DNA of 64,000 nucleotides, taken from contig NZ_QRGB01000001.1 of the NCBI RefSeq assembly GCF_003449035.1, forward strand, positions 2,108,001-2,172,000, in the 5' to 3' direction. This document shows positions 10,260 through 63,942 of the stretch, piece by piece. The stretch comes from Pedobacter indicus. Lineage in GTDB: Bacteria > Bacteroidota > Bacteroidia > Sphingobacteriales > Sphingobacteriaceae. Below the pieces are notes generated by a model. The model saw nothing but the letters and a program-made list of their open reading frames with translations, had not been told where the DNA came from and searched no databases. The position numbers and the translations under genes were made by a program. Numbering within the stretch: the stretch's first letter is position 1; every line of letters starts with the position of its first letter.

Positions 10260-10309
10260 AAACGGGAGTTATACAATAAAAAAAAATATTTGTATAATTC
10301 CCGTTTTTT
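10260..10309 (+). terminator. rho-independent terminator after nagB
   Basis: A 15-base stem (ACGGGAGTTATACAA at 10262-10276 pairing with TTGTATAATTCCCGT, one G-T pair) with an A-rich loop is followed by a run of T. It starts just after the nagB stop codon. Confidence 0.85.
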
Positions 10310-10364: not shown

Positions 10365-10378
10365 TGTAATCGATTACA
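10365..10378. promoter_or_regulatory. candidate LacI-type operator TGTAATCGATTACA
   Basis: A perfect 14-base palindrome with a central CG, the hallmark of LacI-family operators. Its 12-base core is repeated exactly at 10465 and at 63931. It lies 322 bases before the ThuA fusion gene. Confidence 0.6.
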
Positions 10379-10464: not shown

Positions 10465-10476
10465 GTAATCGATTAC
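10465..10476. promoter_or_regulatory. candidate LacI-type operator GTAATCGATTAC
   Basis: A perfect 12-base palindrome, the second copy upstream of the ThuA operon. A pair of identical sites about 99 bases apart would allow a looped repressor complex. That is inference from spacing only. Confidence 0.6.
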
Positions 10477-10699: not shown

Positions 10700-13600
10700 A
10701 TGTATAAACTCCCAGTAACCAAAAAGAGAAAGAAGCGGAAGCGTATCTTGTCAGTCTTGTTAGGCTGTATTATTTTAGCGGTAGCAGCTTGCGCCCCTAA
10801 AATTGTTTCACAACAAGCGGCATCGACTGCACAGGAAGCACCAGTCAACCCGAAAAGAATTGAAGTGCTTTTTTTAGGGCACAAAAGCACACATCATGAT
10901 TCTTATCGATATGCACCCTGGTTGGCAATTAAACTATTCCAGAGCGGCATTAACATGACGTATACAGATGATTTGGCAGATTTAAATAAAGATAATCTGA
11001 AGAAATTTGATGGCCTGATTATTTATGCTAATCATGATACTATTTCACCTAGTCAGGAAGCAGCTCTAAAAGACTTTGTTGAAGGTGGAAAGGGACTTAT
11101 CCCACTCCATTCAGCAACGGGCTGTTTCAAGAATTCCGAATGGTATATACAAGCTGTTGGCGGACAATTTGCTTCTCATGGTGAAGGTATATTTAAGGGA
11201 ACGATCGTTGATTCTACCCATGCTGTTATGCAGGGGATAAATGAATTCGAAACCTGGGATGAAACTTATGTTCATCAAGCGCTTAATCCCGATAAGACTG
11301 TCTTGATGGAACGTATCGAAGGGGATCATAACGAACCTTACACTTGGGTGCGTAATCAGGGAGAAGGTAGGGTGTTTTATACTGCATATGGGCATGATGA
11401 AAGAACATGGAAAAATATCGGATTTTTAAATCTTGTAAGGAACGGTGTACTTTGGGCTGTGGGTGATCAGGCGGTCGCTGATATGAAAGCACTGGACATA
11501 CCGAATGTCGATATCTATAATAGTGACACCATTTCTGATTATACAGCGCGTCATCTTGTTCCAAAAATCCAAGAGGCTCTGGAACCTTCCGAGTCTAACA
11601 AACTGACTCAGGTTTTAACTGACTTTGATATCGAACTATTTGCTTCCGAACCGGACATTATTAATCCAATTGCAATGGCATGGGATGAACGCGGACGGTT
11701 GTGGATTGTTGAGTCGGTAGATTATCCGAATACGTTTGTTGAGACTGATGGGCTGGCTAACGACCGTATTAAAATTTGTGAGGATACTGATGGAGACGGC
11801 AAAGCAGATAAGTTTACGGTATTTGCTGACGATTTAAACATCCCAACTAGTATTGTCTTTGTAAACGGGGGTGTTATTGTTTCGGAGGCTCCTGGTTTTG
11901 TTTTCTTAAAAGATACAGATGGAGATGATGTCGCTGATCTTCGAGAAGTCATTATGACCGGCTGGAATAAAAATGATACGCATGCCGGACCATCTAATTT
12001 ACAGTATGGTTTTGACAATAAAATATGGGGCGTAACGGGTTATGCTGGTTTTGACGGGGAACTTAATGGTAAAAAGGCTAAGTTTTCTCAAGGAGTATAT
12101 CACTTCGCACCAGATGGCAAAAACTTTGAATATTTAGCACCAACCAGTAACAATACATGGGGCTTAGGTTTTACTGAAGATAATAATGTGTTTATCTCAA
12201 CAGCAAATAATACGCACAGCGCATTTTATTCGATGCCAGATAAACTTTTGAAATATAAACTCCCGGAGCATGACGATTATCCGAGAATATCAGCAGTTCA
12301 AAAAATTGATGGGCATTATGACCTTCACCCGTTAACACCGAACTTACGACAAGTTGATGTAGTAGGTGGCTTTACTTCAGCTGCCGGTTATCAATTTTAT
12401 ACCGCTAGGGACTTTCCAAAAGAATATTGGAATAAAGTAGCATTTGTCACGGAACCTACCGTGCGTTTAGTGCACAACTCAATTGTTGAACCAGACGGAG
12501 CTGGTTTTGTTGAAAAGGATGGTTGGAATCTTGTGGCCAGTTCTGACGAATGGTTTGGTCCGGTACAGGCTTCCGTAGGGCCGGATGGGGCTGTTTGGGT
12601 TGCGGACTGGTATAATTTTATTATTCAGCACAACGTTTTTGTGCCAGAACAAGCACCTTCTGAATTTGTATTGCCTTTTAAAGAGCAACCTCATGGACCT
12701 GGAAATGCATTTTCAAGCCCGCTGCGCGATACAAATCACGGCAGAATCTATCGTATAGTATATAAAAACGCAGAAGAAAAGAATCCATTAACACTTTCAA
12801 AAGATAGTCTTGATGGTCTGCTTAACGCTCTAGAGAATGATAATCTATTTTGGAGAATGACAGCTCAGCGTTTATTGGTTGAGTCTCAAAACCAGGATGC
12901 AGTTCCCAGACTTTATGAGATCATCAACAACCAGTCAGTTGATGAAATTGGTTTAAACGGTCCTGCTGTGCATGCTTTATGGACATTGCACGGATTGGGA
13001 GCACTCGATGGCTCAAATCAAGAAGCGCTTGCAGTGGTAGAAAAGGCTTTAGATCATCCGGCTGCAGGAGTTAGAAAAGCTGCCCTACAGGTACTTCCGA
13101 AAACTCATCATGGGGTCATGGCTATTCAAGAGCACGGGCTATTGACAGATGCTAACTTAAATACCCGTCTAGCCGCATTTGTTGAGCTTGCATTATTGCC
13201 TGAATTTAAGCAAGTTGGTGAGCTTATTTACAAAGCCAGTCTAAATAACGAAAATGAAGATGACAAATGGTTGTCACAAGCGCTTTATTCAGCGTCTGTG
13301 GTTCATCGTGAAGGGTTTAGAGAGGCGTTTAATGCGGATGCTTCAACATCTAAAAGTTCATTCTCAGAAAGAATTAAAACAGCATTAGATAAAGAGTTTC
13401 CTGAAGAGAAACCAAAAGAAGTGAAGACTGAGGTGAAGAAAAAGCCTGCGCCTGAACAGGAAAAGCCAAAAGTAATGAGGGTGACGATCGGTGTTGTGAA
13501 AGATATTATGCAGTACGATAAAAAATTGATTACTTTAAAGGCTGGTACTAGAGTTTCATTACGATTTGTAAATCCAGATGGTATGTTGCATAACTTATTG

Positions 13601-13849
13601 ATTATTAAACCTGGATCCCTTCAAAAGGTTGGTGCTGCTGCTGATGCAATGTTACGTAACCCGAACGCCGCAGACTTGCAGTATGTACCCAAAATTCCAG
13701 AAGTGCTATTTTCAACAAAATTATTATCAACTGGTGAGTCTGATACGATCGAGTTTACTGTACCTAGTACACCTGGGGACTATCCATTTGTCTGTACTTT
13801 CCCTGGTCACTGGCGAGGGATGAACGGAATAATCCGAGTAACTAAATAA
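10700..13849 (+). CDS. ThuA / PVC-type dehydrogenase / HEAT / azurin-like cupredoxin fusion lipoprotein
   Basis: The 1049-residue protein has these domains in order. A lipoprotein signal ends near residue 32 (VAACAPK). A ThuA-like domain follows (about 49-260: VLFLGHKSTHHDSYR, IPLHSATGCF, FYTAYGHDERTW). Next come a membrane-bound-dehydrogenase-type beta-propeller (about 310-690: ELFASEPDIINPIAMAWDE, NTWGLGF), HEAT-like helices (about 740-880), a lysine-rich linker (about 895-930) and a C-terminal cupredoxin. The copper ligands of an azurin site are visible: H964, C1032, H1037 and M1041 in CTFPGHWRGM. Related PVC-type proteins often end in cytochrome c, but this one has no CxxCH. The likely role is oxidation of a sugar outside the inner membrane, with electrons passed to copper. 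The substrate is unknown. A paralogue lies at 37707-40637. Confidence 0.85.
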   Translation: MYKLPVTKKRKKRKRILSVLLGCIILAVAACAPKIVSQQAASTAQEAPVNPKRIEVLFLGHKSTHHDSYRYAPWLAIKLFQSGINMTYTDDLADLNKDNLKKFDGLIIYANHDTISPSQEAALKDFVEGGKGLIPLHSATGCFKNSEWYIQAVGGQFASHGEGIFKGTIVDSTHAVMQGINEFETWDETYVHQALNPDKTVLMERIEGDHNEPYTWVRNQGEGRVFYTAYGHDERTWKNIGFLNLVRNGVLWAVGDQAVADMKALDIPNVDIYNSDTISDYTARHLVPKIQEALEPSESNKLTQVLTDFDIELFASEPDIINPIAMAWDERGRLWIVESVDYPNTFVETDGLANDRIKICEDTDGDGKADKFTVFADDLNIPTSIVFVNGGVIVSEAPGFVFLKDTDGDDVADLREVIMTGWNKNDTHAGPSNLQYGFDNKIWGVTGYAGFDGELNGKKAKFSQGVYHFAPDGKNFEYLAPTSNNTWGLGFTEDNNVFISTANNTHSAFYSMPDKLLKYKLPEHDDYPRISAVQKIDGHYDLHPLTPNLRQVDVVGGFTSAAGYQFYTARDFPKEYWNKVAFVTEPTVRLVHNSIVEPDGAGFVEKDGWNLVASSDEWFGPVQASVGPDGAVWVADWYNFIIQHNVFVPEQAPSEFVLPFKEQPHGPGNAFSSPLRDTNHGRIYRIVYKNAEEKNPLTLSKDSLDGLLNALENDNLFWRMTAQRLLVESQNQDAVPRLYEIINNQSVDEIGLNGPAVHALWTLHGLGALDGSNQEALAVVEKALDHPAAGVRKAALQVLPKTHHGVMAIQEHGLLTDANLNTRLAAFVELALLPEFKQVGELIYKASLNNENEDDKWLSQALYSASVVHREGFREAFNADASTSKSSFSERIKTALDKEFPEEKPKEVKTEVKKKPAPEQEKPKVMRVTIGVVKDIMQYDKKLITLKAGTRVSLRFVNPDGMLHNLLIIKPGSLQKVGAAADAMLRNPNAADLQYVPKIPEVLFSTKLLSTGESDTIEFTVPSTPGDYPFVCTFPGHWRGMNGIIRVTK

Positions 13850-13855
13850 AAACAT

Positions 13856-14590
13856 ATGAAAAAGTATTTAATTCACAAAACTCTATTAACAAGCATACTG
13901 CTGCTTGTTTCGGTTACATTGACGTATAATATCGCAAAAGCACATGCCAAAGAACCAATTCGCGTTTTGATGGTAGGCGGGGGCGAGTCGCATGACTTCG
14001 ATACTTGGTATAGAGGTGCTGACGTAATAACATTGGAAAAAAATGGTTTTGCACAGGTAATATATACCGATGATGTTACCCAAATCATGGATCATTTGCC
14101 CAATATTGATGTTCTATTCCTGTCGAATAACCAACCTATTAAAGACCAGGCTACTCGGCAAGCTATTTTCGAGTTTACAAAAGCTGGAAAAGGTTTGGTT
14201 TTGGCTCATGCAGCATTGTGGTATAACTGGTCAGACTGGCCAGAGTATAACAAAGAATTAGTAAGCGGTGGTTCTCGAGGTCACGACCCTTATGGTGCTT
14301 TTACAGTCAACATCGTTAAAAAACATCCTGTAGTAAAGGGGGTAGATAAGAGCTTCGAGCTAAAGGATGAGCTATACTATCAAGAGGTCGACCAGGCTGG
14401 ACCGGGACTGGATGTTCTTGCCACCGCGAATAACAAAGAAACAGGAAAATCTTTCCCTTCGGTTTTTGTTGTTAAGAATCCCGATACAAGAATTGTCGGT
14501 ATAGCTTTAGGTCATGACGGGGAAGCTCATAATATAGAAAACTATAAAAAACTAGTAAGAAATGCTGTAAAATGGGCAGCAAGTAAATAA
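13856..14590 (+). CDS. exported ThuA-domain protein
   Basis: The 244-residue protein has a signal peptide (about 1-30, ending near AKAHAKE), then one ThuA domain with VLMVGGGESHDFDTWY and SRGHDPYGAF. ThuA proteins fold like class I glutamine amidotransferases but lack that chemistry. In rhizobia ThuA works with the Gfo/Idh enzyme ThuB on trehalose-type disaccharides and their 3-keto forms. Here a Gfo/Idh gene follows after 33 bases, the same pairing. It starts 6 bases after the fusion gene, so co-transcription is nearly certain. Confidence 0.85.
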   Translation: MKKYLIHKTLLTSILLLVSVTLTYNIAKAHAKEPIRVLMVGGGESHDFDTWYRGADVITLEKNGFAQVIYTDDVTQIMDHLPNIDVLFLSNNQPIKDQATRQAIFEFTKAGKGLVLAHAALWYNWSDWPEYNKELVSGGSRGHDPYGAFTVNIVKKHPVVKGVDKSFELKDELYYQEVDQAGPGLDVLATANNKETGKSFPSVFVVKNPDTRIVGIALGHDGEAHNIENYKKLVRNAVKWAASK

Positions 14591-14623
14591 TCATAAAACT
14601 AAAACTTTAAAAGAAGAAAAATT

Positions 14624-15742
14624 ATGGAAGAGAAAAAAATCACGGTTGTTATTGTTGGAATGGGTTTCGGTAAAGAATTCATCGCTATCTATCAGTCGCA
14701 TCCAAATATCAAGGCAGTTGGAATTTGTACAAGAAATGAGGACACCTTAACCGAGTTGAAGAACAAATTCAATCTTGATGAGGATTTATGTTTCACCAAT
14801 TTCGATGATGTTACGAAAAGAGACGATGTAGATGCCATACACATCGTAACCCCAGTTCCCGAACATGCGAGAATGACACTTGCTTCACTGAATGCAAATA
14901 AACATACAGCTTGTACGATACCAATGGCGATGACTGTTGAGGACTGCAAAGCGATTGTAGAGGCAAAAAGAAAAGCAAATAAAGTGTACATGATGATGGA
15001 AACGGCTTTGTACACTCGTGAGTTTTTATATGGTTTAAAACTAGCTGAAACAGGGCAGTTAGGAAGGATTCAATTTGTTCGAGGATCCCATATCCAAGAC
15101 ATGAGTATGGAAGGCTGGGCTGAATACTGGAAAGGATTTCCTCCGATGTTAAATGGAACACATGCTATTTCTCCACTTTTAAGAATTAACAATACCAAAG
15201 CGGAATCTGTAGTATGTCACGGATCAGGGCGGTTAAGCGAGGACTTGGCTAAACGCTATAACGCTCCCTATGCTGTCGAAACAGCTACATTTAAATTGAA
15301 AAATTCTGATGTAGTAGCGGAAGCAACTCGGTCACTTTTTGATGTCGTACGTCAATATCGTGAGAGCTACGACGTTTACGGAGATAAAATGTCTTTCGAG
15401 TGGGAGCAGTTGCAAGACGAGCAACATGTAATTTTCGATGGCGGAGAAAACGCTGAACGAATAGATGTGCCTGATACGGATGAACTTTTGATCGAACCAA
15501 TTAAACATTTTACCAAGAGAGAAAAAATAGACGACCCGAATCACGTGTCATTTCTGCAAGGTGCGGGGCATGGTGGCTCGCATCCACACTTAGTACAAGA
15601 GTTTGTTGCTGCGATTGTAGAAGGTCGAAATTCCGCAGTCGACGCAGACGTCGCCGCAAATTATACCTGTGCTGGTATTTGTGCACATGAATCTGCGATG
15701 AAGGGCGGAGTTCGCGTAGAGATTCCAGACTTTGAGCTATAA
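14624..15742 (+). CDS. cytosolic Gfo/Idh/MocA oxidoreductase (ThuB-like position)
   Basis: The 372-residue protein has no signal peptide. The N-terminal Rossmann motif is VVIVGMGFGKEF (8-19), and HIVTPVPEHARM precedes the cofactor loop. The C-terminal motif GAGHGGSHPHLVQEFV is shared with the paralogue at 36554-37693. The usual EKP lysine motif reads as CTIPMAMTVEDC here (about 97-108), so the catalytic arrangement differs from the exported members. It probably oxidises or reduces a sugar or keto-sugar with NAD(P) in the cytosol. It is followed after 28 bases by a TIM-barrel sugar epimerase. Confidence 0.87.
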   Translation: MEEKKITVVIVGMGFGKEFIAIYQSHPNIKAVGICTRNEDTLTELKNKFNLDEDLCFTNFDDVTKRDDVDAIHIVTPVPEHARMTLASLNANKHTACTIPMAMTVEDCKAIVEAKRKANKVYMMMETALYTREFLYGLKLAETGQLGRIQFVRGSHIQDMSMEGWAEYWKGFPPMLNGTHAISPLLRINNTKAESVVCHGSGRLSEDLAKRYNAPYAVETATFKLKNSDVVAEATRSLFDVVRQYRESYDVYGDKMSFEWEQLQDEQHVIFDGGENAERIDVPDTDELLIEPIKHFTKREKIDDPNHVSFLQGAGHGGSHPHLVQEFVAAIVEGRNSAVDADVAANYTCAGICAHESAMKGGVRVEIPDFEL

Positions 15743-15770
15743 ACTAATTTTTAATATTTAAAAAACAACT

Positions 15771-16619
15771 ATGAAATTTGGGGTAAGTACCTTCGTGTGG
15801 GTTTCTCCTTTTAACACAGCGTCGTTTGATTTAATCCATAAAGTAAAAGATATGGGTTATGATAGCATTGAAATCGCAGTTGAGGATAAAGATATAATTG
15901 ATTGGCCTAAGTTAAAAAAGCTTGCTGACGAAGTCGGATTGGGCATTACAATAAGTGGAGCATTTGGTGCCGAGCGGGACATAGCAAGTGATAATCCGGA
16001 GTTTAGAGAGATTGGCTTGAAGTACATAAAAGATTGTGTCCAGATAGCCAATGAGATGGAGAGCCCTGTTTTTGGCGGGCCAATTTATTCTGCCGTTGGG
16101 AAAACCCGCTTGATTTCTGAAGAACAAAAGAAGAAAGAACGAGAATGGTGTATTGAGAACCTATTTGAAGCTGCAAAGTTTGCTGAGCAACACAATGTTG
16201 TTTTGGGGCTTGAACCGCTCAACCGTTTCGAGACCGATATGATTAATACGGGCGACCAGGCTCTCTCTCTCATTCGCGAGATAGACAGTCCTTACCTCAA
16301 AATCTTACTCGATACGTTTCACTGTAATATCGAAGAAAAGAGTATCCCCGATACCATCCGAAAGATAGGCAAAGACTTATGTCATGTCCAAGGTAATGAA
16401 TCTGATCGTGGAACACCCGGTACGGGTAACCTCGATTGGCAGGGTATTAAAGATGCACTTGACGATATTCAATATACCGGTTCGATCGTTATAGAAACGT
16501 TCGGAGCACCCTCTAAAGAATTGGCGAGGGCCGCTAGTATTTGGCGGCCTCTTGCCAATAGTGCTGATGAGCTGGCGAGTGAAGGTCTTTCTTTTTATAA
16601 AAAGATGTTTTTATCCTGA
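15771..16619 (+). CDS. sugar phosphate isomerase/epimerase (tagatose 3-epimerase-like TIM barrel)
   Basis: The 282-residue cytosolic protein of the AP-endonuclease-2-like TIM-barrel family shows the four metal-ligand contexts of ketose 3-epimerases: Glu in GLEPLNRFE, Asp in LDTFHCNIEE, His in CHVQGNESDRGTPG and Glu in IVIETFG. Such enzymes epimerise free ketoses at C3. Related TIM-barrel enzymes act as isomerases or lyases on keto-sugars. Beside a Gfo/Idh oxidoreductase and ThuA, action on a keto-sugar is plausible. It is paralogous to the 35677-36549 gene, and the gap to the MFS gene is 38 bases. Confidence 0.85.
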   Translation: MKFGVSTFVWVSPFNTASFDLIHKVKDMGYDSIEIAVEDKDIIDWPKLKKLADEVGLGITISGAFGAERDIASDNPEFREIGLKYIKDCVQIANEMESPVFGGPIYSAVGKTRLISEEQKKKEREWCIENLFEAAKFAEQHNVVLGLEPLNRFETDMINTGDQALSLIREIDSPYLKILLDTFHCNIEEKSIPDTIRKIGKDLCHVQGNESDRGTPGTGNLDWQGIKDALDDIQYTGSIVIETFGAPSKELARAASIWRPLANSADELASEGLSFYKKMFLS

Positions 16620-16657: not shown

Positions 16658-18220
16658 ATGAACGTAGGAACAGGCGATTCGTCGGAGACGGCGATTGACG
16701 ATCGTTCACGTAAAATGCTCTTTTGGGGCTGTTTCATCGTGCTCGTGGCTTCTGCTTTTGGTTTTGTTTTCAGGTCTTTTTTAATGCCTTCTTGGGGTGT
16801 GCAATTTGATCTCAGCAAGACTCAACAAGGTGAAATTTTTGGTGTCAGCTTTTGGCCATTTGGTATCAGTATTGTGATTTTTAGTTTAATCATTGACCGC
16901 ATCGGTTACAAAAAATCAATGGTCTTTGCTTTTCTTTGTCACACGCTTTCCGTTATTCTTACTGTGCTAGCAGACGGCTATTGGATGCTTTATATTGGGA
17001 CTTTTCTTTTTGCTCTCGGTAATGGTGCCGCGGAAGCTGTCGTAAATCCGGTTGTAGCCACGATGTATCCAAAAGAAAAGACGAAATGGTTAAATATTCT
17101 ACATGCCGGTTGGCCGGTCGGAATCGCTATCGCAGGTGTGATGGGGATAGGGATGTTGCATTTCGGGTTTAATTGGCATATTATCATCGGGGTAATTATG
17201 TTGCCTACGATAACGTATGGTCTATTGATTGCTAAGCGCCACTTTCCCGTTAACGAACGCGTACAGGCGGGAGTTACGTATCTGGAGATGTTAAAGGAAG
17301 TTGGTATCCTGGGTATTTTGATTATTGTGGCTCTCTGTGTGTTCCAGTTAGGAACGTTATTTGGCTGGTCTTATTTAATAAGCGTCATTATTACGCTGTT
17401 GATTGTTGCGGTTTTCGGTTACTTCGTACGTTCACTTGGTCGGCCGCTTTTTATTATGTTACTCCTGCTCATGATCCCATTGGCAACAACAGAGCTGGGT
17501 ACCGACAGCTGGATCACCGATTTAATGACACCTGAAATGGCTAAAATTGGTCTGCAAGGAGGTTGGGTTCTGGTATACACTTCCATTATTATGGCTGTTT
17601 TACGTTTCTATGCCGGACCGATTGTAGAGAGGTTTTCGCCTTTAGGCCTCTTGGCTTTTAGTGCTTTGATAGCGGCCGTTGGACTACAGTTTTTATCTTA
17701 TTCGGTTGGCTTCGTAATTATCATAGCAGCTACCATTTACGCTTTGGGGAAAACGTTTTTTTGGGGCACAATGTTAGGTGTCGTCTCAGAACAGTTTCCA
17801 AAAGGTGGAGCCTTAGCTCTAAACTTTACGGGTGCTGTGGGACAGGTAGGAGTGGGCGTTATCGGTGCTGTTTTCTTGGGTACAATACAAGATAAACAGC
17901 TGGATCAGAACCTTGCAATGTATGATCAGAACAACCAGACCTCTTATCACGAGACTTTCATAACCGAACATAAAACCAGTATATTCGGCGAGTACCTGGC
18001 ATTAGATGGAGATAAACTGCTTGATGCAGATTCACAGACCGTCGATGTTATTTCACAGGTTCAAAATGAAGCAAAAAAAGATGCTTTAAGAACAGTCTCT
18101 ATTCTTCCGACAATCATGTTGGTATGCTACGTTTTGTTTATCCTTTATTTTAAGTTTTTTAAAGGGGGATATAAACCTATTGAATTAATTGAAGAAAACG
18201 AAGTAGTTTCGGAAGACTAA
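16658..18220 (+). CDS. MFS transporter
   Basis: The 520-residue protein has about 12-14 predicted membrane helices. The N-terminal half contains the loop DRIGYKKSM between helices, as in major facilitator proteins, and the acidic GNGAAEAVVNP segment. A soluble stretch of about 70 residues (about 405-475) precedes the last helix, longer than usual. It shares motifs with the MFS protein at 46826-48061 (GNGxxEAxxNP). As the last gene of the ThuA operon it probably imports the sugar or product handled by that operon. Confidence 0.88.
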   Translation: MNVGTGDSSETAIDDRSRKMLFWGCFIVLVASAFGFVFRSFLMPSWGVQFDLSKTQQGEIFGVSFWPFGISIVIFSLIIDRIGYKKSMVFAFLCHTLSVILTVLADGYWMLYIGTFLFALGNGAAEAVVNPVVATMYPKEKTKWLNILHAGWPVGIAIAGVMGIGMLHFGFNWHIIIGVIMLPTITYGLLIAKRHFPVNERVQAGVTYLEMLKEVGILGILIIVALCVFQLGTLFGWSYLISVIITLLIVAVFGYFVRSLGRPLFIMLLLLMIPLATTELGTDSWITDLMTPEMAKIGLQGGWVLVYTSIIMAVLRFYAGPIVERFSPLGLLAFSALIAAVGLQFLSYSVGFVIIIAATIYALGKTFFWGTMLGVVSEQFPKGGALALNFTGAVGQVGVGVIGAVFLGTIQDKQLDQNLAMYDQNNQTSYHETFITEHKTSIFGEYLALDGDKLLDADSQTVDVISQVQNEAKKDALRTVSILPTIMLVCYVLFILYFKFFKGGYKPIELIEENEVVSED

Positions 18221-35676: not shown

Positions 35677-36549
35677 ATGTCCTTAGATGTAAAACTCGCT
35701 GCCAGTACCTGGTTATGGATGTCGCCTTTTGCTACTGAAAATGCGCCCGAATTATTCTCGACCATTAAGAAACTGGGATATGATGCAGTCGAACTGGCAA
35801 TCGAAGATCCTAAGCTAATTGATGCTAAGAAAATTAAAGAATATTTATCAAACTATGGGCTGCGAGCGACAGTATGTGGAGCTTTTGGAGAAACAAGAGA
35901 CCTGACAAACGACGATGAAGGATTTCGGAAAGTCGGGTTGGAATATATTGAGGATTGTCTTGAAATAGCGTCAATATTGGAGGCAGGATTCTTCGCCGGG
36001 CCGATGTATTCAGCAGTAGGAAAGGCAAGATTGGTTTCTGCTGAACAAAAGAAACGTGAATGGGAAAGAGCTGTTATGGGTTTACAGAAGGCTAGTGATA
36101 TGGCTCAAAGGAGAGGCTTACAGTTGGCCGTAGAACCACTAAATCGTTTCGAGTCTGATTTGATCAACGACGTAGATGATGTTCTGAAATTAATAAACGA
36201 TATCAATCATGCGGCTGCGAATGTATGTTTGGATATGTTCCATATGAACATTGAAGAACCCGATCCTGAGAGTGCAATCACGAAAGTAGGCAGTAAATTA
36301 ACACATATGCAAGTCTCAGAAAATCACCGCGGTACACCAGGTTCGGGCGGAGCAAACTGGGGCGCCTACTATCGCGGATTAAAGAAAATAGGGTATCGTG
36401 GTGTCGTTTCAATTGAAAGCTTTACCCCAGAAAACCAAGAATTAGCTGCGGCTGTATGTATTTGGAAACGATTTGCAGCAAGTCAGGATGATTTCGCGAA
36501 AGAAGGTCATGATTTTTTGAAAAAATGGATTAACGGAGATTATAAATAA
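35677..36549 (+). CDS. sugar phosphate isomerase/epimerase (tagatose 3-epimerase-like), paralogue
   Basis: The 290-residue cytosolic TIM-barrel protein is closely similar to the 15771-16619 protein. Metal-ligand contexts are conserved: AVEPLNRFESDLIND, LDMFHMNIEEPD, THMQVSENHRGTPGSG and VVSIESF. Shared phrases include DSIEIAVED/DAVELAIED and FGGPIYSAVGK/FAGPMYSAVGK, which show a common origin. It heads a three-gene operon (gap of 4 bases to the Gfo/Idh gene). The reaction is probably on a ketose or keto-sugar, but the substrate is unknown. Confidence 0.86.
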   Translation: MSLDVKLAASTWLWMSPFATENAPELFSTIKKLGYDAVELAIEDPKLIDAKKIKEYLSNYGLRATVCGAFGETRDLTNDDEGFRKVGLEYIEDCLEIASILEAGFFAGPMYSAVGKARLVSAEQKKREWERAVMGLQKASDMAQRRGLQLAVEPLNRFESDLINDVDDVLKLINDINHAAANVCLDMFHMNIEEPDPESAITKVGSKLTHMQVSENHRGTPGSGGANWGAYYRGLKKIGYRGVVSIESFTPENQELAAAVCIWKRFAASQDDFAKEGHDFLKKWINGDYK

Positions 36550-36553
36550 AAGA

Positions 36554-37693
36554 ATGATGCAAAAAAAGGTAATTAATGTAGCGATTGTGGGTTTGGGTTT
36601 TGGTGCTGAGTTTATTCCGATTTACCAAAAGCACCCGAACGCAAATATGTATGCGATATGTCAGCGCAACCCTGAGAAGCTGAATGAAATAGGAGATCAT
36701 TTTTCGATCGAAAAGCGCTTTGACAATTATGATGAATTGTTAAAAGATCCCGAGATTGATGCCGTACATATCAATACGCCCATTCCAAATCACGCAGAAC
36801 AATCCATTAAAGCTTTGCGAGCGGGAAAACATGTTGCGTGTACCGTTCCGATGGCTACAACTGTTGAAGAATGCAGGCAAATTGTTGAGGCTGTCGAAGA
36901 GACGGGCTTGACTTATATGATGATGGAGACGGTTGTTTACGCTCGTGAGTTCTTGTTCATGAAGGATTTGTATGAAAAAGGGGAACTTGGTAAAGTTCAA
37001 TTCTTAAAAGCTAGCCATCAGCAAGATATGGAAGGCTGGCCTAGCTACTGGCCAGGTTTACCACCTATGCATTATGCGACCCACTGTGTGGGGCCGGTGC
37101 TGGCTTTAACTCGTGACGAAGCGGAATACGTTTCTTGCTTTGGCTCGGGTACGATAGACGAGAGTTTACATCATTATTATAACTCGCCATTCGCTGTCGA
37201 GAGTGCTCATGTTCGTTTCAGAAGCTCCGATTTAACCGCTCACGTTTATCGTTCTCTTTTTGATACCGCCCGGCAATACCGTGAAAGCTTCGAAGTATAT
37301 GGTTCTAAAAAAGCCGTTGAGTGGCCTTTGATTGAGGGAGAACCATTAGTAGTTCATACGGCTAAAAAGCCCGAACCGGAAATACCGGAACGAGTTGAAT
37401 GTCCAGACTTTGCACATTTATTGCCACCAGAAATTCAGGCGTTTACGACTGGAGGTGTGTACGACGAAGACTCAAATCAACATCTCTCCTTTACGCAGGG
37501 TGCCGGTCATGGAGGGTCGCATCCGCACCTGGTTCATGAGTTTGTCAGTGCGCTGGTCGAAGGAAGAGAGCCTTTTCCCAACGCAGTGCAATCAGCCAAT
37601 ATGACCTGTGTGGGCATTCTGGCTCACGAGTCGGCTTTGCAGAACGGTCAGGTTTTGAAAATGCCGGACTTTACTTTGTCAAAAAAAGAATAA
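36554..37693 (+). CDS. cytosolic Gfo/Idh/MocA oxidoreductase, paralogue
   Basis: The 379-residue protein has no signal peptide and a Rossmann motif VAIVGLGFGAEF at the N terminus. Like the 14624-15742 protein it has CTVPMATTVEEC in place of the usual EKP loop and ends with GAGHGGSHPHLVHEFV. It lies 4 bases after the epimerase gene and 13 bases before the ThuA fusion gene. The same trio is present in the first module in a different order. It probably interconverts a sugar and keto-sugar in the cytosol. Confidence 0.88.
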   Translation: MMQKKVINVAIVGLGFGAEFIPIYQKHPNANMYAICQRNPEKLNEIGDHFSIEKRFDNYDELLKDPEIDAVHINTPIPNHAEQSIKALRAGKHVACTVPMATTVEECRQIVEAVEETGLTYMMMETVVYAREFLFMKDLYEKGELGKVQFLKASHQQDMEGWPSYWPGLPPMHYATHCVGPVLALTRDEAEYVSCFGSGTIDESLHHYYNSPFAVESAHVRFRSSDLTAHVYRSLFDTARQYRESFEVYGSKKAVEWPLIEGEPLVVHTAKKPEPEIPERVECPDFAHLLPPEIQAFTTGGVYDEDSNQHLSFTQGAGHGGSHPHLVHEFVSALVEGREPFPNAVQSANMTCVGILAHESALQNGQVLKMPDFTLSKKE

Positions 37694-37706
37694 TATTAAC
37701 AAGGAT

Positions 37707-40637
37707 ATGAAAATCAAATATTTAGGTATTATATTGCTTTCCTTATTCCTATTCTCTTGTAAGGAGGAATCACCCAAAAGGTTGGAGTTGTTTTTCTTAG
37801 GTCATGATAGTAAACATCATGATTCGGAGCAGCTGGCCGAAATTTTATCTCAGGAATATTTTAAGGATGGGTTTAATATAACCTATTCAGTCAATCCGGA
37901 GGATCTGACTTCGGAAAATCTAAAACAGTACGATGGGTTGATCCTCTATGCTAATCACGATACGATTTCTGCGGAACAGGAAACCGCACTGCTTGATTAC
38001 GTTGCCTCAGGGAAGGGGTTTATCCCGATACATTCGGCTTCTTTTTGTTTTCAAAATTCACCGGAAGTGATCGAGCTGATCGGGGGGCAGTTTAAAAGCC
38101 ATGAAGGTGGTTCTTTTTCTGCAGAGATCGTTAAACCCGAACACCCTGCTCTTAACCGGGTAGAACCGTTTACAACAGAATGGGATGAAACCTATGTACA
38201 CGATAAAATTGCTGACGACATTGAAGTGTTGATGGAGCGTGTGGAAGACGGTCACCGAGAGCCTTATACATGGGTAAAAGAACACGGTAAGGGTCGTGTG
38301 TTTTATACAGCATTTGGACATGATGAGCGTACATTCCGCAATCCAGGCTTTTTGCAACTGATAAAAAGCGGGATTTTGTGGGCAGTTGGAGATGCGGCTG
38401 CTGAAAGCTTAAATAAATTAACCATCGCTCAGCCGAGCTATCAGGATGCTCATCTGCCTAATTATGAAAAGAGGGATCCGGCCCCAAAATATCAGTTACC
38501 ATTATCTCCTGAAGAGTCACAAACCCTTATTCAAGTTCCGCCAGGTTTTCGATTAGAATTATTTGCCAGTGAACCGGATATCAAGAAACCGATCGCCATG
38601 AACTGGGATGAAAAAGGTCGTTTGTGGATTATTGAGACCGTTGATTACCCGAATACGGTTCGAAATGATAAAGGCGAAGGAGACGACCGTATTCTAATTT
38701 TAGAAGATACAGACGGTGATGGGAAAGCCGACAAAATTACAGAGTTTGCAGCTGGTTTAAATATACCGACGGGATTTGTGTTTTCTAATGGAGGAATTAT
38801 CGTTTCGCAAGCACCTAACTTTTTATTTTTGAAAGACGAAGACGGCGATGATCAAGCTGATGTGCGGAAAGTGCTGATCGAAGGTTGGGGTACTTTTGAT
38901 ACCCATGCCGGACCTTCCAATTTACATTATGGTTTTGACAACAAAATATGGGGTACAGTTGGTTATTCTGGGTTTGAGGGAACGATCGGAGGGAAGGATT
39001 TTCGCTTCGGTTCCGGAATCTACCGTTTTGAGCCGGACGCGTCTGAATTTGAATTTTTGACGAATACATCCAACAATACTTGGGGCCTTGGTTTTTCTGA
39101 GGAATTTGATGTTTTTGCTTCGACCGCAAACAACGAACATAGTGTTTTCTTTGCGATCCCCAATCGGTATTATGAACAAACTGAAATCAAAGGGAAAGGC
39201 TCCCAGAAAATCGATAGTCATTATGGGATGCATGTGGTTACAAAGAATTTGCGCCAGGTAGATGTACACGGCGGGTTTACTGCCGCTGCCGGGCATAGTC
39301 TTTACACCGCTCGTTCTTATCCGAAAGAATATTGGAATCGGGTAGCTTTCATCAATGAGCCTACAGGACGGTTGATTCATAAACATGTGGTTGAGCAAAA
39401 AGGATCTGGTTTTGTTGAAGGTTTCGACGCTTGGAACCTAGTGAGCAGCGCTGATGAATGGTTTGGTCCGGTTGAAACAAAGGTTGGACCAGACGGTTCT
39501 GTATGGTTTTTGGATTGGTACAATTTCATTATTCAACATAATCCGACTCCCGAAGGGGCTGAAAACGGAGAAGGAAACGCCTATATAGATCCTTTGCGTG
39601 ACAATACGAGAGGGCGAATATATCGCTTGGTATATGAAGGATCTGAACCTTCAAAAAGCTTTGACTTGAGTAATAAAAATACGCCAGATCTCTTGCAGGC
39701 GCTCCAAAGTGACAATATGTTTTGGCGGACAACGGCGCAACGTCTGCTCGTTGAGGCAGGAGACCGGTCAATTGCTGACGATTTGTATAAAATCATTGAA
39801 ACAGAACAAGTAGACGAAATTAACACCGACGCTGGTGCAATACACGCTTTGTGGACCCTCCACGGTTTGGGTCTGTTGAAACAACCAGATCAGAAAAGTA
39901 AAGATGTTGTGTTCAAAGCCTTGACCCATCCTTCCGGAGGAGTAAGAAGAGCGGCTGTTCAAGTTTTACCAGCAAATGATGCTGGGGTGATCGATAAGCT
40001 GATCGATTCAGAAGCATTGTCTGACCCGGATTTACGAGTACGCCTCGCAACGATTTTGAAATTGGCTGATGCAGAACCATCAGAGAAAATTGCACAAGCA
40101 ATTTTAGAAGCTTCACAAGTAGAGGGAAATAAAAATGACAAATGGATTTCCGATGCATTAACCATTGCGGAAACTCTGAACAAAGAATTCGTTTCCTTGG
40201 TTCAAAAGAATCTGACCGAGTCTCAAGATAATGAAGAAAAGAATGAGGAAAAGGCTGTTGATGAAACGATTAAGATCAATGTCATTGTCGGTGAAATGAA
40301 ATACGATAAAACCAAGTTTTCAGTAAAAGCCGGTACCCGGGTGAAGATAATCTTGGATAATCCTGACTTTATGCAACATAATCTTTTGATCATCAAGCCG
40401 GGCACGCTTGAACAGGTTGGCAAAGCAGCCGATCAGATTGCAACGCAAACCGATGGGGCTGAACTCCAATACATACCTGATATTCCAGAGGTTTTGTTCT
40501 CCACGCCGCTTGTTGATCCGAACGATTCGGTGGAATTGACTTTTACAGTTCCGAGTCAACCCGGCGATTATCCTTTTATCTGTACTTTCCCCGGACACTG
40601 GAGGATCATGAATGGAATAATGACCGTTACAAAATAG
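37707..40637 (+). CDS. ThuA / PVC-type dehydrogenase / HEAT / azurin-like cupredoxin fusion lipoprotein, paralogue
   Basis: The 976-residue protein has the same domain order as the 10700-13849 protein. A lipoprotein signal comes first (LSLFLFSCKEE, Cys18), then ThuA (about 26-235), a dehydrogenase-type beta-propeller (about 280-640), HEAT-like helices (about 660-810) and a C-terminal azurin-like cupredoxin. The copper ligands are H891, C959, H964 and M968 in CTFPGHWRIM. It has no CxxCH haem motif. The linker before the cupredoxin is Glu/Asn-rich, while the paralogue's is Lys/Pro-rich. It ends the three-gene operon before a strong terminator. It probably oxidises a sugar outside the inner membrane and passes electrons to copper. 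Confidence 0.85.
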   Translation: MKIKYLGIILLSLFLFSCKEESPKRLELFFLGHDSKHHDSEQLAEILSQEYFKDGFNITYSVNPEDLTSENLKQYDGLILYANHDTISAEQETALLDYVASGKGFIPIHSASFCFQNSPEVIELIGGQFKSHEGGSFSAEIVKPEHPALNRVEPFTTEWDETYVHDKIADDIEVLMERVEDGHREPYTWVKEHGKGRVFYTAFGHDERTFRNPGFLQLIKSGILWAVGDAAAESLNKLTIAQPSYQDAHLPNYEKRDPAPKYQLPLSPEESQTLIQVPPGFRLELFASEPDIKKPIAMNWDEKGRLWIIETVDYPNTVRNDKGEGDDRILILEDTDGDGKADKITEFAAGLNIPTGFVFSNGGIIVSQAPNFLFLKDEDGDDQADVRKVLIEGWGTFDTHAGPSNLHYGFDNKIWGTVGYSGFEGTIGGKDFRFGSGIYRFEPDASEFEFLTNTSNNTWGLGFSEEFDVFASTANNEHSVFFAIPNRYYEQTEIKGKGSQKIDSHYGMHVVTKNLRQVDVHGGFTAAAGHSLYTARSYPKEYWNRVAFINEPTGRLIHKHVVEQKGSGFVEGFDAWNLVSSADEWFGPVETKVGPDGSVWFLDWYNFIIQHNPTPEGAENGEGNAYIDPLRDNTRGRIYRLVYEGSEPSKSFDLSNKNTPDLLQALQSDNMFWRTTAQRLLVEAGDRSIADDLYKIIETEQVDEINTDAGAIHALWTLHGLGLLKQPDQKSKDVVFKALTHPSGGVRRAAVQVLPANDAGVIDKLIDSEALSDPDLRVRLATILKLADAEPSEKIAQAILEASQVEGNKNDKWISDALTIAETLNKEFVSLVQKNLTESQDNEEKNEEKAVDETIKINVIVGEMKYDKTKFSVKAGTRVKIILDNPDFMQHNLLIIKPGTLEQVGKAADQIATQTDGAELQYIPDIPEVLFSTPLVDPNDSVELTFTVPSQPGDYPFICTFPGHWRIMNGIMTVTK

Positions 40638-40719: not shown

Positions 40720-40935
40720 TTATTATATCCTGAATTTTCCGGATCATTTATGTAAAGTGCTATAATACAGCTATAAATGGATAATATAAAGGTGGTATAA
40801 ACCTAGATATCTAGCTAATATTGATATTAAATAAACCAATTGTAAAGTCGTGAAACTATGTTCCTTTCGCGGCTTGACATTAAATTATGGATCCCTCAAA
40901 ATGGATCAGATTACTATTCATTAAAATGTATTGCT
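40720..40935. promoter_or_regulatory. susC leader region with palindrome CTAGATATCTAG
   Basis: A perfect 12-base palindrome at 40803-40814 lies about 120 bases before the susC start. The rest is AT-rich, with no exact TAnnTTTG promoter and no gene. The palindrome may be an operator, but it has no central CG and no second copy, so this is weak. Confidence 0.35.
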
Positions 40936-43900
40936 ATGGATGTTTTTATGGAAAAAATGAAGACGCATCGGCACTTAAAAAAGATTGGCCTATTTCTAGC
41001 CTTGCTCTGTTGTCTGTCAAGTCCTCTGTCCACTTCGGCGCAGACGAACACACAAGAAATTGTCGCGGGAAAGGTAACTGATGTTAACGGCGAGCCTCTA
41101 ACGGGGGTAAGTGTCCTTCTTAAAAATTCTCAGATTGGTACGAGCACAGACAACGACGGGAACTTCTCCCTGCTTATCCCCAGTCGTGAAGGTGTTCTCG
41201 AATTCTCTTACATGGGCTTTCAGAAGCACGAGCAAACCGTTACTTCCGGGGAGCCGGTAACGGTACAAATGACCGCCGATCAAGAGGCGCTGTCTGAAGT
41301 AGTCGTTGTCGGTTATGGTACGCAAACCAAGGCGTCGATAACAGGTGCAGTAAGTTCGATTCAATCGGAAGATATTGTGCGCACACCCGCCGTTTCAGCA
41401 ACGAGTGCCTTGGTAGGGAAGATTCCCGGTATCACATCTCGTGCTACTGATTCTAGACCCGGGAATGGAACGAATTTACAAATTCGAAATCTAGGTGCAC
41501 CACTGTATGTTATTGACGGTGTTCCGTATAGTATGAACGATCAAACTACTGCTTTCGGATTGAATAGTGGGGTTTCAGGACAGAATATGTTTAATAATCT
41601 TGGTATCGAAGATATCGAAAGCATAACCGTTCTTAAAGATGCGTCAGCCGCAGTATATGGTTTGCGGGCGTCCAATGGAGTGGTTCTGATTACCACAAAG
41701 AAAGGAAGAAAAAATGAGCAGGCTTCTATCAATTTGACAAGTTACTACGGTCTACAAAATTTCACCCGTTTTCCGAGAGTTGCGAATGCGGGTCAGTACG
41801 TGCGTGGTCTTTTAGAATCAGTGCAAAACTTGGGTGGCGATCCGTCCTTATTATATTCACCTGAAGAGTTAGCCCGTTGGGAAGCCGGAACCGAAAAGGG
41901 TTATAAAACGTATGATTATTATGATATCGTAACTCGTAAAAATGTTCCCCAAGCCTATATTAGTCTGAATACATCTGGTGGCACCGAGCGCTCCAATTAT
42001 TACTTCGCGGTAAGCCATGTCAATCAGGATGCCATCCTGAAGGACTTTAATTTTAACCGAACAAACTTACAGGCCAATTTATCAACGAATATCGCAAATG
42101 GTTTGACGCTGGGTGCCCAGGTTTCGGGACGGATTGAAGATCGGCATAACGTTGGTGTCCCTGGACTGGATGATTATTTTAATCCGCTGCTCAGTATCTT
42201 TAGTATGTGGCCAACCGAGAGCCCTTATGCGAATGACAACCCCAATTATGTACATCAAACACACAATGTCAATGTGAACCCGGCTACCTATACGGATGAT
42301 ATCACTGGCTATGTAGATGAGATCACCAGGGCCATGAATGTGAACATCAATGCTCAATATGATTTTAATTTTGGTTTAACAGTTAAAGGACTCTACTCAT
42401 ATAACTATACCAATCAAGACTTTGACGGCTTCGAATATACTTATAAAGCGTATCGTTATAATGAAGCGACTGATACCTATGAGGATCGGGATCCGAGTAG
42501 CGGAGCCCTTTATGGTAATCAAAACCCGTGGCGAGAGAAACATAAAAGGAATATCGTGTCAAACTTCGCACAGGTTCAACTCAACTACGAAAAGCAATTA
42601 GGTGATCATTTTATATCCGGAGTTGCTGCTTACGAACGGTCAGAAAATGAGAATTCGTATCTGGCGATCCATTCAGTACCTCCGAACAATTATGTGCCTC
42701 TCATGAATTTTTCTACACAAGACTATCTGGCTGATGAGTGGGCCATAGAGGCCAGGGCGGGTTACGTTGGTAGGATTAACTACAACTATAAGCAGCGATA
42801 TCTGGTAGAGCTATTGGGCCGGTACGATGGTTCGTTTTTATACCATGGAGATCAGCGTTGGGGCTTTTTCCCTGGTGTATCGCTTGGATGGCGACTTTCC
42901 GATGAGCCTTTCATGAGAAATATGACCGAAGGCATACTCGATGATTTGAAATTAAGAGCCTCCTATGGTGAGACAGGAAGCGAGCTGGGTCTGGGCGATC
43001 CCCCAGCCATGTTCAGTTATATTGGTGGTTATAATTTTAATCAGGGTAGTGCTGTATTGGATGGCAATTATATTATCGGTTTAAGACCAAGAGGTTTGCC
43101 GATAACCAACTTGTCGTGGGTTACCAATAAAACCTTAAATTTCGGTATAGATTTCACCCTTTTTGAACAGAAATTAACCGGACAATTCGACGTGTTTGAG
43201 CGTCGGAGAAGCGGCTTACCCGCACCTAAATACGATGTGCTATTGCCAGCGGAGGTGGGTTATACTTTACCGGTCGATAATTTAAATTCAGATGCTACCC
43301 GTGGTATGGATGGGGCAATTGGGTATACGAACCGGGTAGGGGAACTCGATTATTCGATTGGGGTAAATGCAACCATCGGGCGTCTGCGTAGCCTGGAAAC
43401 CTATAAGCCTCGTTTTGGTAACGCATGGGAGGAATACCGCTATTCGGTTGAAGACCGTTGGGCGAACGTTAATTGGGGATATGAAGTAATCGGACAGTTC
43501 CAGTCTCAAGATGAAATAGACCATCATTTGGTAAACAACGACGGACAAGGTAATCGGTCGCAACTTCCGGGCGACTTGATTTACAAAGATGTGAATGGGG
43601 ATGGGATTATCAATGGGATGGACGAAAGGCCGATCGGCTACGCTCAGGGTGCGCTGCCGTATTTTAATTATGGAATTAACGGTAGTTTTAGCATTAAAAG
43701 ATTCACTCTGTCGTTCGATTTTTCAGGCGGGGGAATGCAGAGCTTCTTCAGGAACTGGGAGTTAAAATACCCTTTCCAGAATAATGGAAACCTAATTGAA
43801 TATTTCGCCAGCGACCATTGGCACCGGGTCGATCCATACAATCCAAATAGCGAATGGGTTGCAGGCACTTATCCTGCTTTTCGAAAGGATGTAAACAATC

Positions 43901-44163
43901 ACAATAACTTTAGGAAGAGCTCCTTTTGGCTCACGAATGTACGCTATTTCAGGCTGCGAAACCTTGAGTTGGCATACAGCCTGCCAACGCGTATAATTGA
44001 AAAGGTCGGACTAAAGAATGTTAGAGTTTTTGCTAACGGAACCAATTTGTTTTCGATTGATAACGTGAAAGATTTCGGAATAGATCCAGAAATCAGCAGT
44101 GAAAATGGATTGATATATCCTCAACAAAAGCTTTATAATTTTGGTATAAATGTTTCATTATAA
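40936..44163 (+). CDS. SusC/RagA-type TonB-dependent outer-membrane transporter
   Basis: The 1075-residue (from this start) outer-membrane protein imports an oligosaccharide or other large nutrient with a SusD partner. A signal peptide ends near PLSTSAQ. A carboxypeptidase-D-like domain follows (VAGKVTDVNGEPLTGVSVLL), then the TonB plug (VVVVGYGTQTKASITGAVSSI, VLKDASAAVYGLRASNGVVL) and a 22-strand barrel ending in LYNFGINVSL. The start is placed at ATG 40936; an earlier in-frame ATG at 40858 would add 26 residues before the signal, and 40948 is also possible. SusD follows at once. No enzyme is encoded next to the pair, so the substrate is unknown. Confidence 0.9.
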   Translation: MDVFMEKMKTHRHLKKIGLFLALLCCLSSPLSTSAQTNTQEIVAGKVTDVNGEPLTGVSVLLKNSQIGTSTDNDGNFSLLIPSREGVLEFSYMGFQKHEQTVTSGEPVTVQMTADQEALSEVVVVGYGTQTKASITGAVSSIQSEDIVRTPAVSATSALVGKIPGITSRATDSRPGNGTNLQIRNLGAPLYVIDGVPYSMNDQTTAFGLNSGVSGQNMFNNLGIEDIESITVLKDASAAVYGLRASNGVVLITTKKGRKNEQASINLTSYYGLQNFTRFPRVANAGQYVRGLLESVQNLGGDPSLLYSPEELARWEAGTEKGYKTYDYYDIVTRKNVPQAYISLNTSGGTERSNYYFAVSHVNQDAILKDFNFNRTNLQANLSTNIANGLTLGAQVSGRIEDRHNVGVPGLDDYFNPLLSIFSMWPTESPYANDNPNYVHQTHNVNVNPATYTDDITGYVDEITRAMNVNINAQYDFNFGLTVKGLYSYNYTNQDFDGFEYTYKAYRYNEATDTYEDRDPSSGALYGNQNPWREKHKRNIVSNFAQVQLNYEKQLGDHFISGVAAYERSENENSYLAIHSVPPNNYVPLMNFSTQDYLADEWAIEARAGYVGRINYNYKQRYLVELLGRYDGSFLYHGDQRWGFFPGVSLGWRLSDEPFMRNMTEGILDDLKLRASYGETGSELGLGDPPAMFSYIGGYNFNQGSAVLDGNYIIGLRPRGLPITNLSWVTNKTLNFGIDFTLFEQKLTGQFDVFERRRSGLPAPKYDVLLPAEVGYTLPVDNLNSDATRGMDGAIGYTNRVGELDYSIGVNATIGRLRSLETYKPRFGNAWEEYRYSVEDRWANVNWGYEVIGQFQSQDEIDHHLVNNDGQGNRSQLPGDLIYKDVNGDGIINGMDERPIGYAQGALPYFNYGINGSFSIKRFTLSFDFSGGGMQSFFRNWELKYPFQNNGNLIEYFASDHWHRVDPYNPNSEWVAGTYPAFRKDVNNHNNFRKSSFWLTNVRYFRLRNLELAYSLPTRIIEKVGLKNVRVFANGTNLFSIDNVKDFGIDPEISSENGLIYPQQKLYNFGINVSL

Positions 44164-44173
44164 GAATAGTAAA

Positions 44174-46033: not shown

Positions 46034-46034
46034 T

Positions 46035-46721
46035 ATGATCATTATGAAAGTATTGAAAGTTTTTATGAAGGTACTGGTAGCTATCTTGTTGTTTTCCAGC
46101 TGCGAGAAAGATAATTTTGAAGCGCCAAAATCTAAATTGACCGGCAAGATAGTCTACCAGGGTAAAGCCTTAGGCCTGCGTACCGATGGTGTTCAGCTGG
46201 AACTATGGCAACATGGCTATGATTTGTTCAATAAGATTCCTGTATACGTTGCTCAGGATGGTAGTTTTTCTGCTGAACTGTTTGACGGTGATTATAAGCT
46301 CACCTTGGTTCGCGGAAACGGACCATGGGCTGAGAGCCTCGATTCACTCGATGTAAAAGTAAGCGGCAATACGACGGTCGATTTTCCAGTTGATCCCTAT
46401 TTTATAATCGAGGGTGAAAGTTTCCGGCAAAATGGAGATGCGATAAATGCGGACTTAACGATCATCCATATTAATACCAGTCGCGATTTAGACCGCGTCA
46501 AACTGTATATCGGTGAGACTGTTTTTGTTGATGATATTTTAAATGTAAGCAGTGTCGAGAAGCTTGCTGCTGACGTGGATATAGATCAGTCCATTTCTTT
46601 AGCTACAGATATCCCTCAGACACTGCGGGGTAAAGGTTATGCTTTTGTTCGGATTGGTGTTAAAACAATTGGGGTAGCCGAATTCATTTACTCTCAGCCA
46701 GTGCGAGTAGAATTTAATTAG
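46035..46721 (+). CDS. DUF3823 lipoprotein of the SusCD operon
   Basis: The 228-residue lipoprotein (ILLFSSCEKDNFEAP, Cys near 23) has an immunoglobulin-like N-terminal domain, LTGKIVYQGKALGLRTDGV, and QDGSFSAELFDGDYKLTL, as in DUF3823. A second domain follows. Such proteins are usually the third gene after susC/susD and probably bind the same glycan at the cell surface. It starts 1 base after the SusD stop codon and ends before a shared terminator. Confidence 0.87.
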   Translation: MIIMKVLKVFMKVLVAILLFSSCEKDNFEAPKSKLTGKIVYQGKALGLRTDGVQLELWQHGYDLFNKIPVYVAQDGSFSAELFDGDYKLTLVRGNGPWAESLDSLDVKVSGNTTVDFPVDPYFIIEGESFRQNGDAINADLTIIHINTSRDLDRVKLYIGETVFVDDILNVSSVEKLAADVDIDQSISLATDIPQTLRGKGYAFVRIGVKTIGVAEFIYSQPVRVEFN

Positions 46722-50389: not shown

Positions 50390-50416
50390 AGTTTGATGAT
50401 TTAAATTTGTTATTAG

Positions 50417-62169: not shown

Positions 62170-62181
62170 TAATTGGAGATC

Positions 62182-63930: not shown

Positions 63931-63942
63931 GTAATCGATTAC
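63931..63942. promoter_or_regulatory. candidate LacI-type operator GTAATCGATTAC
   Basis: A perfect 12-base palindrome identical to the sites at 10367-10376 (core) and 10465-10476. It lies 22 bases before the last, partial gene. The shared site may put that gene under the same regulator as the ThuA operon. Confidence 0.6.

Follow-up and report, generated by a model that had tools for sequence, protein, structure and literature searches.

The 64,000-nucleotide stretch of the Pedobacter indicus genome analyzed here (contig NZ_QRGB01000001.1, positions 2,108,001 to 2,172,000; hereinafter the window) contains a run of five genes on the plus strand that form a candidate cassette for oxidative glycoside utilization. 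The first gene, TDA1 (10700..13849), encodes a predicted lipoprotein with the Pfam domains ThuA, DUF7133 and Copper-bind (this ThuA-propeller-azurin type of protein is called TDA here). It is followed by ThuA2 (13856..14590), a stand-alone ThuA-domain protein (Pfam ThuA) that appears to be exported, judging by eye from its signal peptide; GfoC1 (14624..15742), a predicted cytosolic protein with the Gfo/Idh fold (Pfam GFO_IDH_MocA) and an active site of the type found in glycoside hydrolase family 109 (GH109); TIM1 (15771..16619), a ketose-3-epimerase-like TIM barrel (Pfam AP_endonuc_2); and MFS1 (16658..18220), a major facilitator superfamily (MFS) protein that is the probable importer of the substrate or its oxidized product (Pfam MFS_1). 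The gaps between the five open reading frames are 6, 33, 28 and 38 bases. A first-pass annotation had described four genes with gaps of 6, 33 and 28 bases that encode two ThuA domains, a Gfo/Idh enzyme and an epimerase-like enzyme, followed by an MFS transporter, and the open reading frames and Pfam matches agree with this description exactly. The ThuA matches are far above the family cut-off (PF06283, 131.7 and 85.1 bits; cut-off 33.4). A strong intrinsic terminator on the plus strand (10262..10309; hairpin and U-run, -23 kcal/mol, z = -8.3) closes the upstream nagA-LacI-nagB genes, and the cassette would therefore have its own transcript.

A paralogous module with a different gene order, which the first-pass description of the cassette leaves unmentioned, is located in the same window (35677-40637, plus strand) and consists of TIM2 (35677..36549), GfoC2 (36554..37693) and TDA2 (37707..40637), which are 44%, 48% and 52% identical to the respective module 1 proteins. 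The motifs of GfoC2 are identical in kind to those of GfoC1, and TDA2 is also a lipoprotein with an azurin domain. The SusC, SusD and DUF3823 genes for outer-membrane glycan uptake that belong to module 2 lie 3′ of TDA2 (40858..46721, plus strand).

Relatives of the cassette were collected in three sets: 80 named loci retrieved through a TDA1/TDA2 alignment, whose genes were annotated by BLAST comparison to those of the window; 18 further loci from the same family; and 20 loci seeded by GfoC across the phylum. In 98 loci, TDA-type genes are accompanied by GfoC 87 times and by the TIM barrel 84 times. Of 18 loci drawn by GfoC alone, 14 have a TDA gene and 13 a TIM gene on the same strand at a distance of no more than 4.5 kb. 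The linkage of TDA, GfoC and TIM is real and not due to chance. Both layouts recur across Bacteroidota. The first type, [SusC-SusD-DUF3823]-TDA1-ThuA2-GfoC1-TIM1(-MFS1), is represented in Dyadobacter, Algoriphagus, Spirosoma, Fibrella, Persicitalea, Mucilaginibacter and others, with ThuA2 found in all 35 of the 35 loci and the linkage of MFS1 also recurring in other species. The second type has the order AraC(divergent)-TDA-(MFS)-TIM2-GfoC2, without ThuA2; homologues of SusC, SusD and DUF3823 are located 3′ of two such modules (L043 and L060). Median identities to the window proteins in type 1 loci are 87% for GfoC1, 69% for TIM1, 67% for TDA1 and 57% for ThuA2, and GfoC is therefore the component under the strongest constraint. 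GfoC was detected in approximately 25 of the 395 sampled Bacteroidota genomes (about 6%), one of these being a remote homologue; neither the match in genome G182 nor the second match in G307 carries the motifs described below, both being remote homologues, and the homologues in plasmid records are likewise remote only. No paper on the ThuA-propeller-azurin protein or on the cassette was found, in a search that covered few subscription papers. The cassette is a conserved, widespread and apparently undescribed combination of known kinds of parts. Several Dyadobacter loci (L064, L067, L070, L071, L074) contain TDA copies without GfoC or TIM, beside a different SusC/SusD pair that resembles the genes at 59158-63810 of the window.

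Catalysis in canonical Gfo/Idh enzymes depends on the EKP-motif Lys and on an Asp/His pair. GfoC1 contains the Rossmann Gfo/Idh domain (PF01408, 1e-20), and its active-site residues are T98-I99-P100, H180, R243-Q-Y and G315-H316-G-G. All 100 GfoC relatives have T[I/V]P at the EKP position, the catalytic Lys being replaced. The Asp that is expected four residues ahead of the active-site His is missing as well (L176/N177 or H/Y stand there), with H180 alone retained. The GxGHGG motif with H316 is present in all 100 relatives, within the invariant stretch GHGGSHPH (H316, H320, H322). Together with THxxGP (with SP in place of GP in GfoC1, and GP in GfoC2) and RxY, this is the motif set of the NAD-dependent glycosidases of GH109, three of which are encoded in the same genome. 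Within this genome, the absence of Lys combined with GHGG, THxxGP and RxY is shared by GfoC and GH109 only, and the other non-GH109 Gfo/Idh proteins all retain the Lys (18/18). When the Gfo/Idh proteins found in the genome are placed in a tree, GfoC and the three GH109 proteins form one clade (support 100/99), apart from the 18 lysine-bearing proteins.

In a full-length profile alignment of GfoC with the GH109 proteins of the same genome (probability 99.8-99.9), T[IV]P lies opposite E[VI]P, MMMET..Y opposite M.LEN..Y, THCVGP (THAISP in GfoC1) opposite THGLGP and RQY opposite RPY, and the GHGG and C-terminal PDF motifs of the two sides coincide, so that H316 is homologous to the His of the GH109 GGHGG loop. 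The NAD+-dependent alpha-N-acetylgalactosaminidases of GH109 (2IXA, 6T2B) show the same features, namely Val/Ile in place of the EKP Lys, the GGHGG loop with the acid/base His, THGLGP, RPY and PDF. In contrast to these enzymes, to which it is about 20% identical, GfoC has a shorter chain (372 aa), lacks a signal sequence and is encoded next to TDA and a TIM barrel. GH109 enzymes follow a redox route at C3 with the acid/base located in the GGHGG loop, and GH188 enzymes act alike (PMC10755693). The latter, NAD+-dependent sulfoquinovosidases, resemble GfoC in the Gfo/Idh fold, the C3 redox mechanism and a catalytic His pair, but retain the Lys (Lys107) that GfoC lacks. By these sequence features, GfoC probably catalyzes redox chemistry at C3 with elimination and hydration, and its standard annotation as a dehydrogenase is probably wrong. 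Two observations count against this assignment: a scan of 40 GfoC proteins at E 0.1 did not return PF21252, the GH109 C-terminal domain (the HMMER speed filters may hide weak matches), and the best single-sequence PDB match of GfoC is DgpA1, a glycoside 3-dehydrogenase. Because there is no match to the C-terminal Pfam model of GH109, GfoC is not filed in that family and is only said to work like one of its members. In the structural ranking of the GfoC model, GH109 structures come first and second (Z 36.0 and 35.3), tied with levoglucosan dehydrogenase; the ranking by itself does not separate the two.

The match to DgpA1 would fit a ThuA/ThuB-like pathway, in which TDA makes a 3-keto disaccharide outside the inner membrane, GfoC is a plain 3-keto-sugar dehydrogenase or reductase, and TIM and ThuA cleave or isomerize the keto sugar as in the levoglucosan or C-glycoside pathways; indeed, ThuA, the Gfo/Idh fold and PF01261 TIM barrels are all parts of operons for oxidation, elimination, hydration and reduction (PMC10628242, PMC10066097). 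Such a pathway seems unlikely, however, given that the dehydrogenase Lys and Asp are gone in all GfoC relatives, that the GH109 loop is present, and that TIM1 lacks the His of the known eliminases (see below). The reading of GfoC itself as a ThuB-like dehydrogenase, proposed in the first-pass annotation, was rejected on the evidence of the motifs and the tree. More distant proteins from Actinomycetota and Bacillota carry related motifs (VPMA, MMGET, THALGG, GHEGSH; EVTAG, MMAEN, THSLGP, GHWGG), which suggests a broader clade. Gfo/Idh proteins without the Lys and with the His loops GHEGSH and GHWGG are encoded on Kitasatospora and Paenibacillus plasmids (L254:6995-8191, L255:6995-8140).

Among solved structures, TIM1 is closest to D-tagatose/D-psicose 3-epimerases; a 3-keto-glucoside 4-epimerase (6WN6) is a weaker relative. 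Three metal ligands are kept (E148, D181, E242), whereas the fourth, a His, is replaced by Q207 in 95 of 95 relatives, so that TIM1 does not have the full Glu, Asp, His, Glu metal set of the 3-epimerases; it scores 203 bits against the NCBIfam 3-epimerase model, below the cut-off of 300. Hydroxypyruvate-isomerase-like enzymes have a similar HxQ arrangement. The catalytic His of the OGE and CGE eliminases was defined as His134/His143 (PMC10628242). Two residues after the beta-5 metal ligand (E148), where the eliminases have this His, TIM1 and its relatives have Leu (L150, 95/95), and the candidate role of TIM1 as a beta-eliminase of the OGE/CGE/LgdB1 type was rejected. It is also conceivable that GfoC and TIM leave glycosidic bonds intact and act on a free monosaccharide or a cyclitol as isomerases or epimerases. 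The best-scoring models for TIM1, both below their cut-offs, are D-psicose 3-epimerase and IolO, and genes for xylose isomerase and xylulokinase are found close to module 2. We nevertheless regard this possibility as improbable, as the conserved loop His on the C1 side (H316) occupies the position by which GH109 and GH188 break the glycosidic bond (PMC10755693).

TDA1 comprises a ThuA domain (residues 56-253), a DUF7133/Piru_Ver propeller (296-689), HEAT-like helices (about 700-900) and an azurin domain (928-1047), preceded by the lipobox VAAC, judged by eye. Its structural model (predicted local distance difference test score 83) contains three known folds: ThuA (4PXY, 4E5V), the propeller of pyrroloquinoline quinone (PQQ) sugar dehydrogenases, and azurin. 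When the propeller is compared with the PDB, PQQ sugar dehydrogenases fill the first sixteen places (Z 25.8-28.9; other propellers, about 24), and His428 is aligned with the catalytic His of the GSDH enzymes. TDA thus shares with sGDH, Asd and AA12 a six-bladed fold (Z 26-29) and the conserved catalytic His, but its propeller is fused to ThuA and azurin and its cofactor site diverges, which counts against a role in oxidation: the PQQ-binding Arg pair RxR[DE] is missing and aligned to EWFGP, and the equivalent of Arg228, the Arg of the HRN motif, is missing as well, HRN being aligned to SNN with Asn at the Arg position. The GSDH gene at 33225-34487 of the window retains both the Arg pair and the HRN Arg. 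The missing ligands weaken the reading of the propeller as a canonical PQQ enzyme. The oxidation of a sugar outside the inner membrane, as first proposed, is consistent with the fold but less readily with the loss of the Arg pair, and oxidation chemistry can only be attributed to TDA provisionally.

The N-terminal propeller domain of TDA1 also matches TIGR02604 (255.6 bits; cut-off 122.2), and with this domain and the HEAT repeats, TDA resembles the PVC-type heme-binding CxxCH proteins (Piru_Ver, TIGR02604). It differs from these in the N-terminal ThuA domain and in the replacement of cytochrome c by azurin; there is no CxxCH motif in TDA1, TDA2 or any relative scanned, and a heme of the CxxCH kind was rejected for TDA. 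The blue-copper domain matches auracyanin and azurin in sequence and fold, with all four type-1 copper ligands in place (H964, C1032, H1037 and M1041 in TDA1) and intact in both paralogues. Since the copper site is complete and CxxCH is absent, electron transfer through copper is likely. The azurin domain is encoded by a separate small gene directly after TDA in some species (L028, L029, L031, L033, L036, L053), and many TDA proteins contain an extra lectin-like domain (Laminin_G_3, below cut-off). The only biochemistry found for this propeller family concerns the metagenomic protein Lac161_ORF7 (Piru_Ver, HEAT and cytochrome c), which released glucose from lactose (PMC5342196). This activity, along with the missing PQQ ligands, could indicate that TDA is mainly an unusual glycoside hydrolase, with secondary copper and ThuA domains and with cytosolic enzymes that use the released sugar; the intact copper site in both paralogues, and its separate gene in some species, point instead to electron transfer and make a hydrolase rather doubtful.

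These considerations lead to a scheme that we hold to be plausible, if somewhat short of probable, in which the cassette mediates glycoside utilization in two stages, oxidation in the cell envelope and GH109-type processing in the cytosol, with the compartments predicted from signal sequences. In the first stage, the lipoprotein TDA would bind and oxidize a glycan-derived sugar on its propeller, its own azurin domain would pass the electrons to the respiratory chain, and the TDA ThuA domain and the exported ThuA2 would process the oxidized product. In the second stage, the MFS protein would bring the product into the cell, where GfoC would use NAD(P) for redox at C3, release the C1 substituent and complete the cycle by hydration and re-reduction, with H316 acting as the acid/base and H180 positioned at the C3-OH; the TIM barrel, similar to D-tagatose 3-epimerase, would epimerize or isomerize the keto intermediate or the released sugar. 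The two-compartment keto-sugar module suggested by the first-pass annotation is retained here in its envelope protein with a dehydrogenase fold and blue copper, its importer and its cytosolic Gfo/Idh and ketose-epimerase-like enzymes; its ThuB analogy is not supported. Counting against the scheme, a sugar already oxidized at C3 in the envelope would not obviously need a second C3 redox cycle inside, and activity is known for no cassette member.

Comparable operons combine Gfo/Idh enzymes with PF01261 TIM barrels acting via 3-keto sugars (levoglucosan LgdA-B1-B2-C, puerarin Dgp and Agrobacterium GlycDH/OGE), but no copper-bearing envelope oxidase is reported in these, and TIM1 and GfoC lack the respective eliminase His and dehydrogenase Lys. 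The Bacteroides BT2156-BT2160 pathway for 3-keto-glycosides also uses Gfo/Idh and TIM-barrel glycoside enzymes within Bacteroidota, whereas GfoC falls far under the BT_2158/BT_2159 cut-offs and the window lacks a PF06439 hydrolase. All 13 genomic copies of this 3-keto-disaccharide hydrolase gene lie outside the window, and it was rejected as a part of the module. More tentatively, GfoC may be the founder of a new family of NAD-dependent glycosidases with the Gfo/Idh fold next to GH109, within a two-stage pathway not described so far: an envelope lipoprotein, with a cofactor site unlike that of known PQQ dehydrogenases, would first oxidize the glycoside, and its fused azurin would feed electrons to respiration. 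If so, a new glycoside-cleaving family would be tied to respiration, and the dehydrogenase annotation carried by GfoC-type proteins would be misleading in the sampled Bacteroidota genomes that encode them. The cassette also places ThuA and DUF7133, two domains that have no assigned role, in a concrete context.

Two exact copies of a LacI-type palindromic operator, GTAATCGATTAC, precede TDA1 (10366..10377 and 10465..10476; 323 and 224 bases before the gene, respectively). Genome-wide, there are four exact copies, compared to about 0.35 expected by chance; another lies before a GtaA/DUF4964-type gene (63931..63942), and the remaining one is flanked by a LacI gene and a galactokinase-SSF-mutarotase operon (G000:C1:2089171). 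The four operators delineate a small putative regulon of TDA1, the galactokinase/SSF/mutarotase operon and the GtaA/DUF4964 gene. GH109 enzymes have a galacto preference, and GH43, GH5, sulfatase and SusCD genes neighbor type 1 loci. Because of these neighbors, the GH109 preference and the operator shared with galK, the best guess at the substrate is a plant glycan that contains galactose, offered as a lead only. The proximity of module 2 to xylose genes weakens this lead. So does the distribution of the operator: its 14-base form, exact or with one mismatch, is absent from the 80 named loci, with two-mismatch matches only, and in other lineages an AraC gene often replaces the operator upstream of the cassette. 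Conservation of the operator was accordingly rejected as a substrate clue.

Among the neighbors of type 1 loci, a 691-aa, probably secreted protein (D691; L017:16549-18624 and homologues) recurs in 15 loci and has neither Pfam nor PDB matches. The genes for xylose isomerase and xylulokinase beside module 2 are accompanied by LacI and AraC regulators (49058-51910). Two genuine genes of the PQQ aldose-dehydrogenase type are found near the two modules, at 187-1680 and at 33225-34487, the former being a fusion of GSDH with cytochrome c. Directly upstream of the window (L142, G000:C1:2093001-2108500), a further ThuA gene, a further DUF7133 protein, two DegT-type aminotransferases and an amidohydrolase are encoded, followed by this GSDH-cytochrome c gene.

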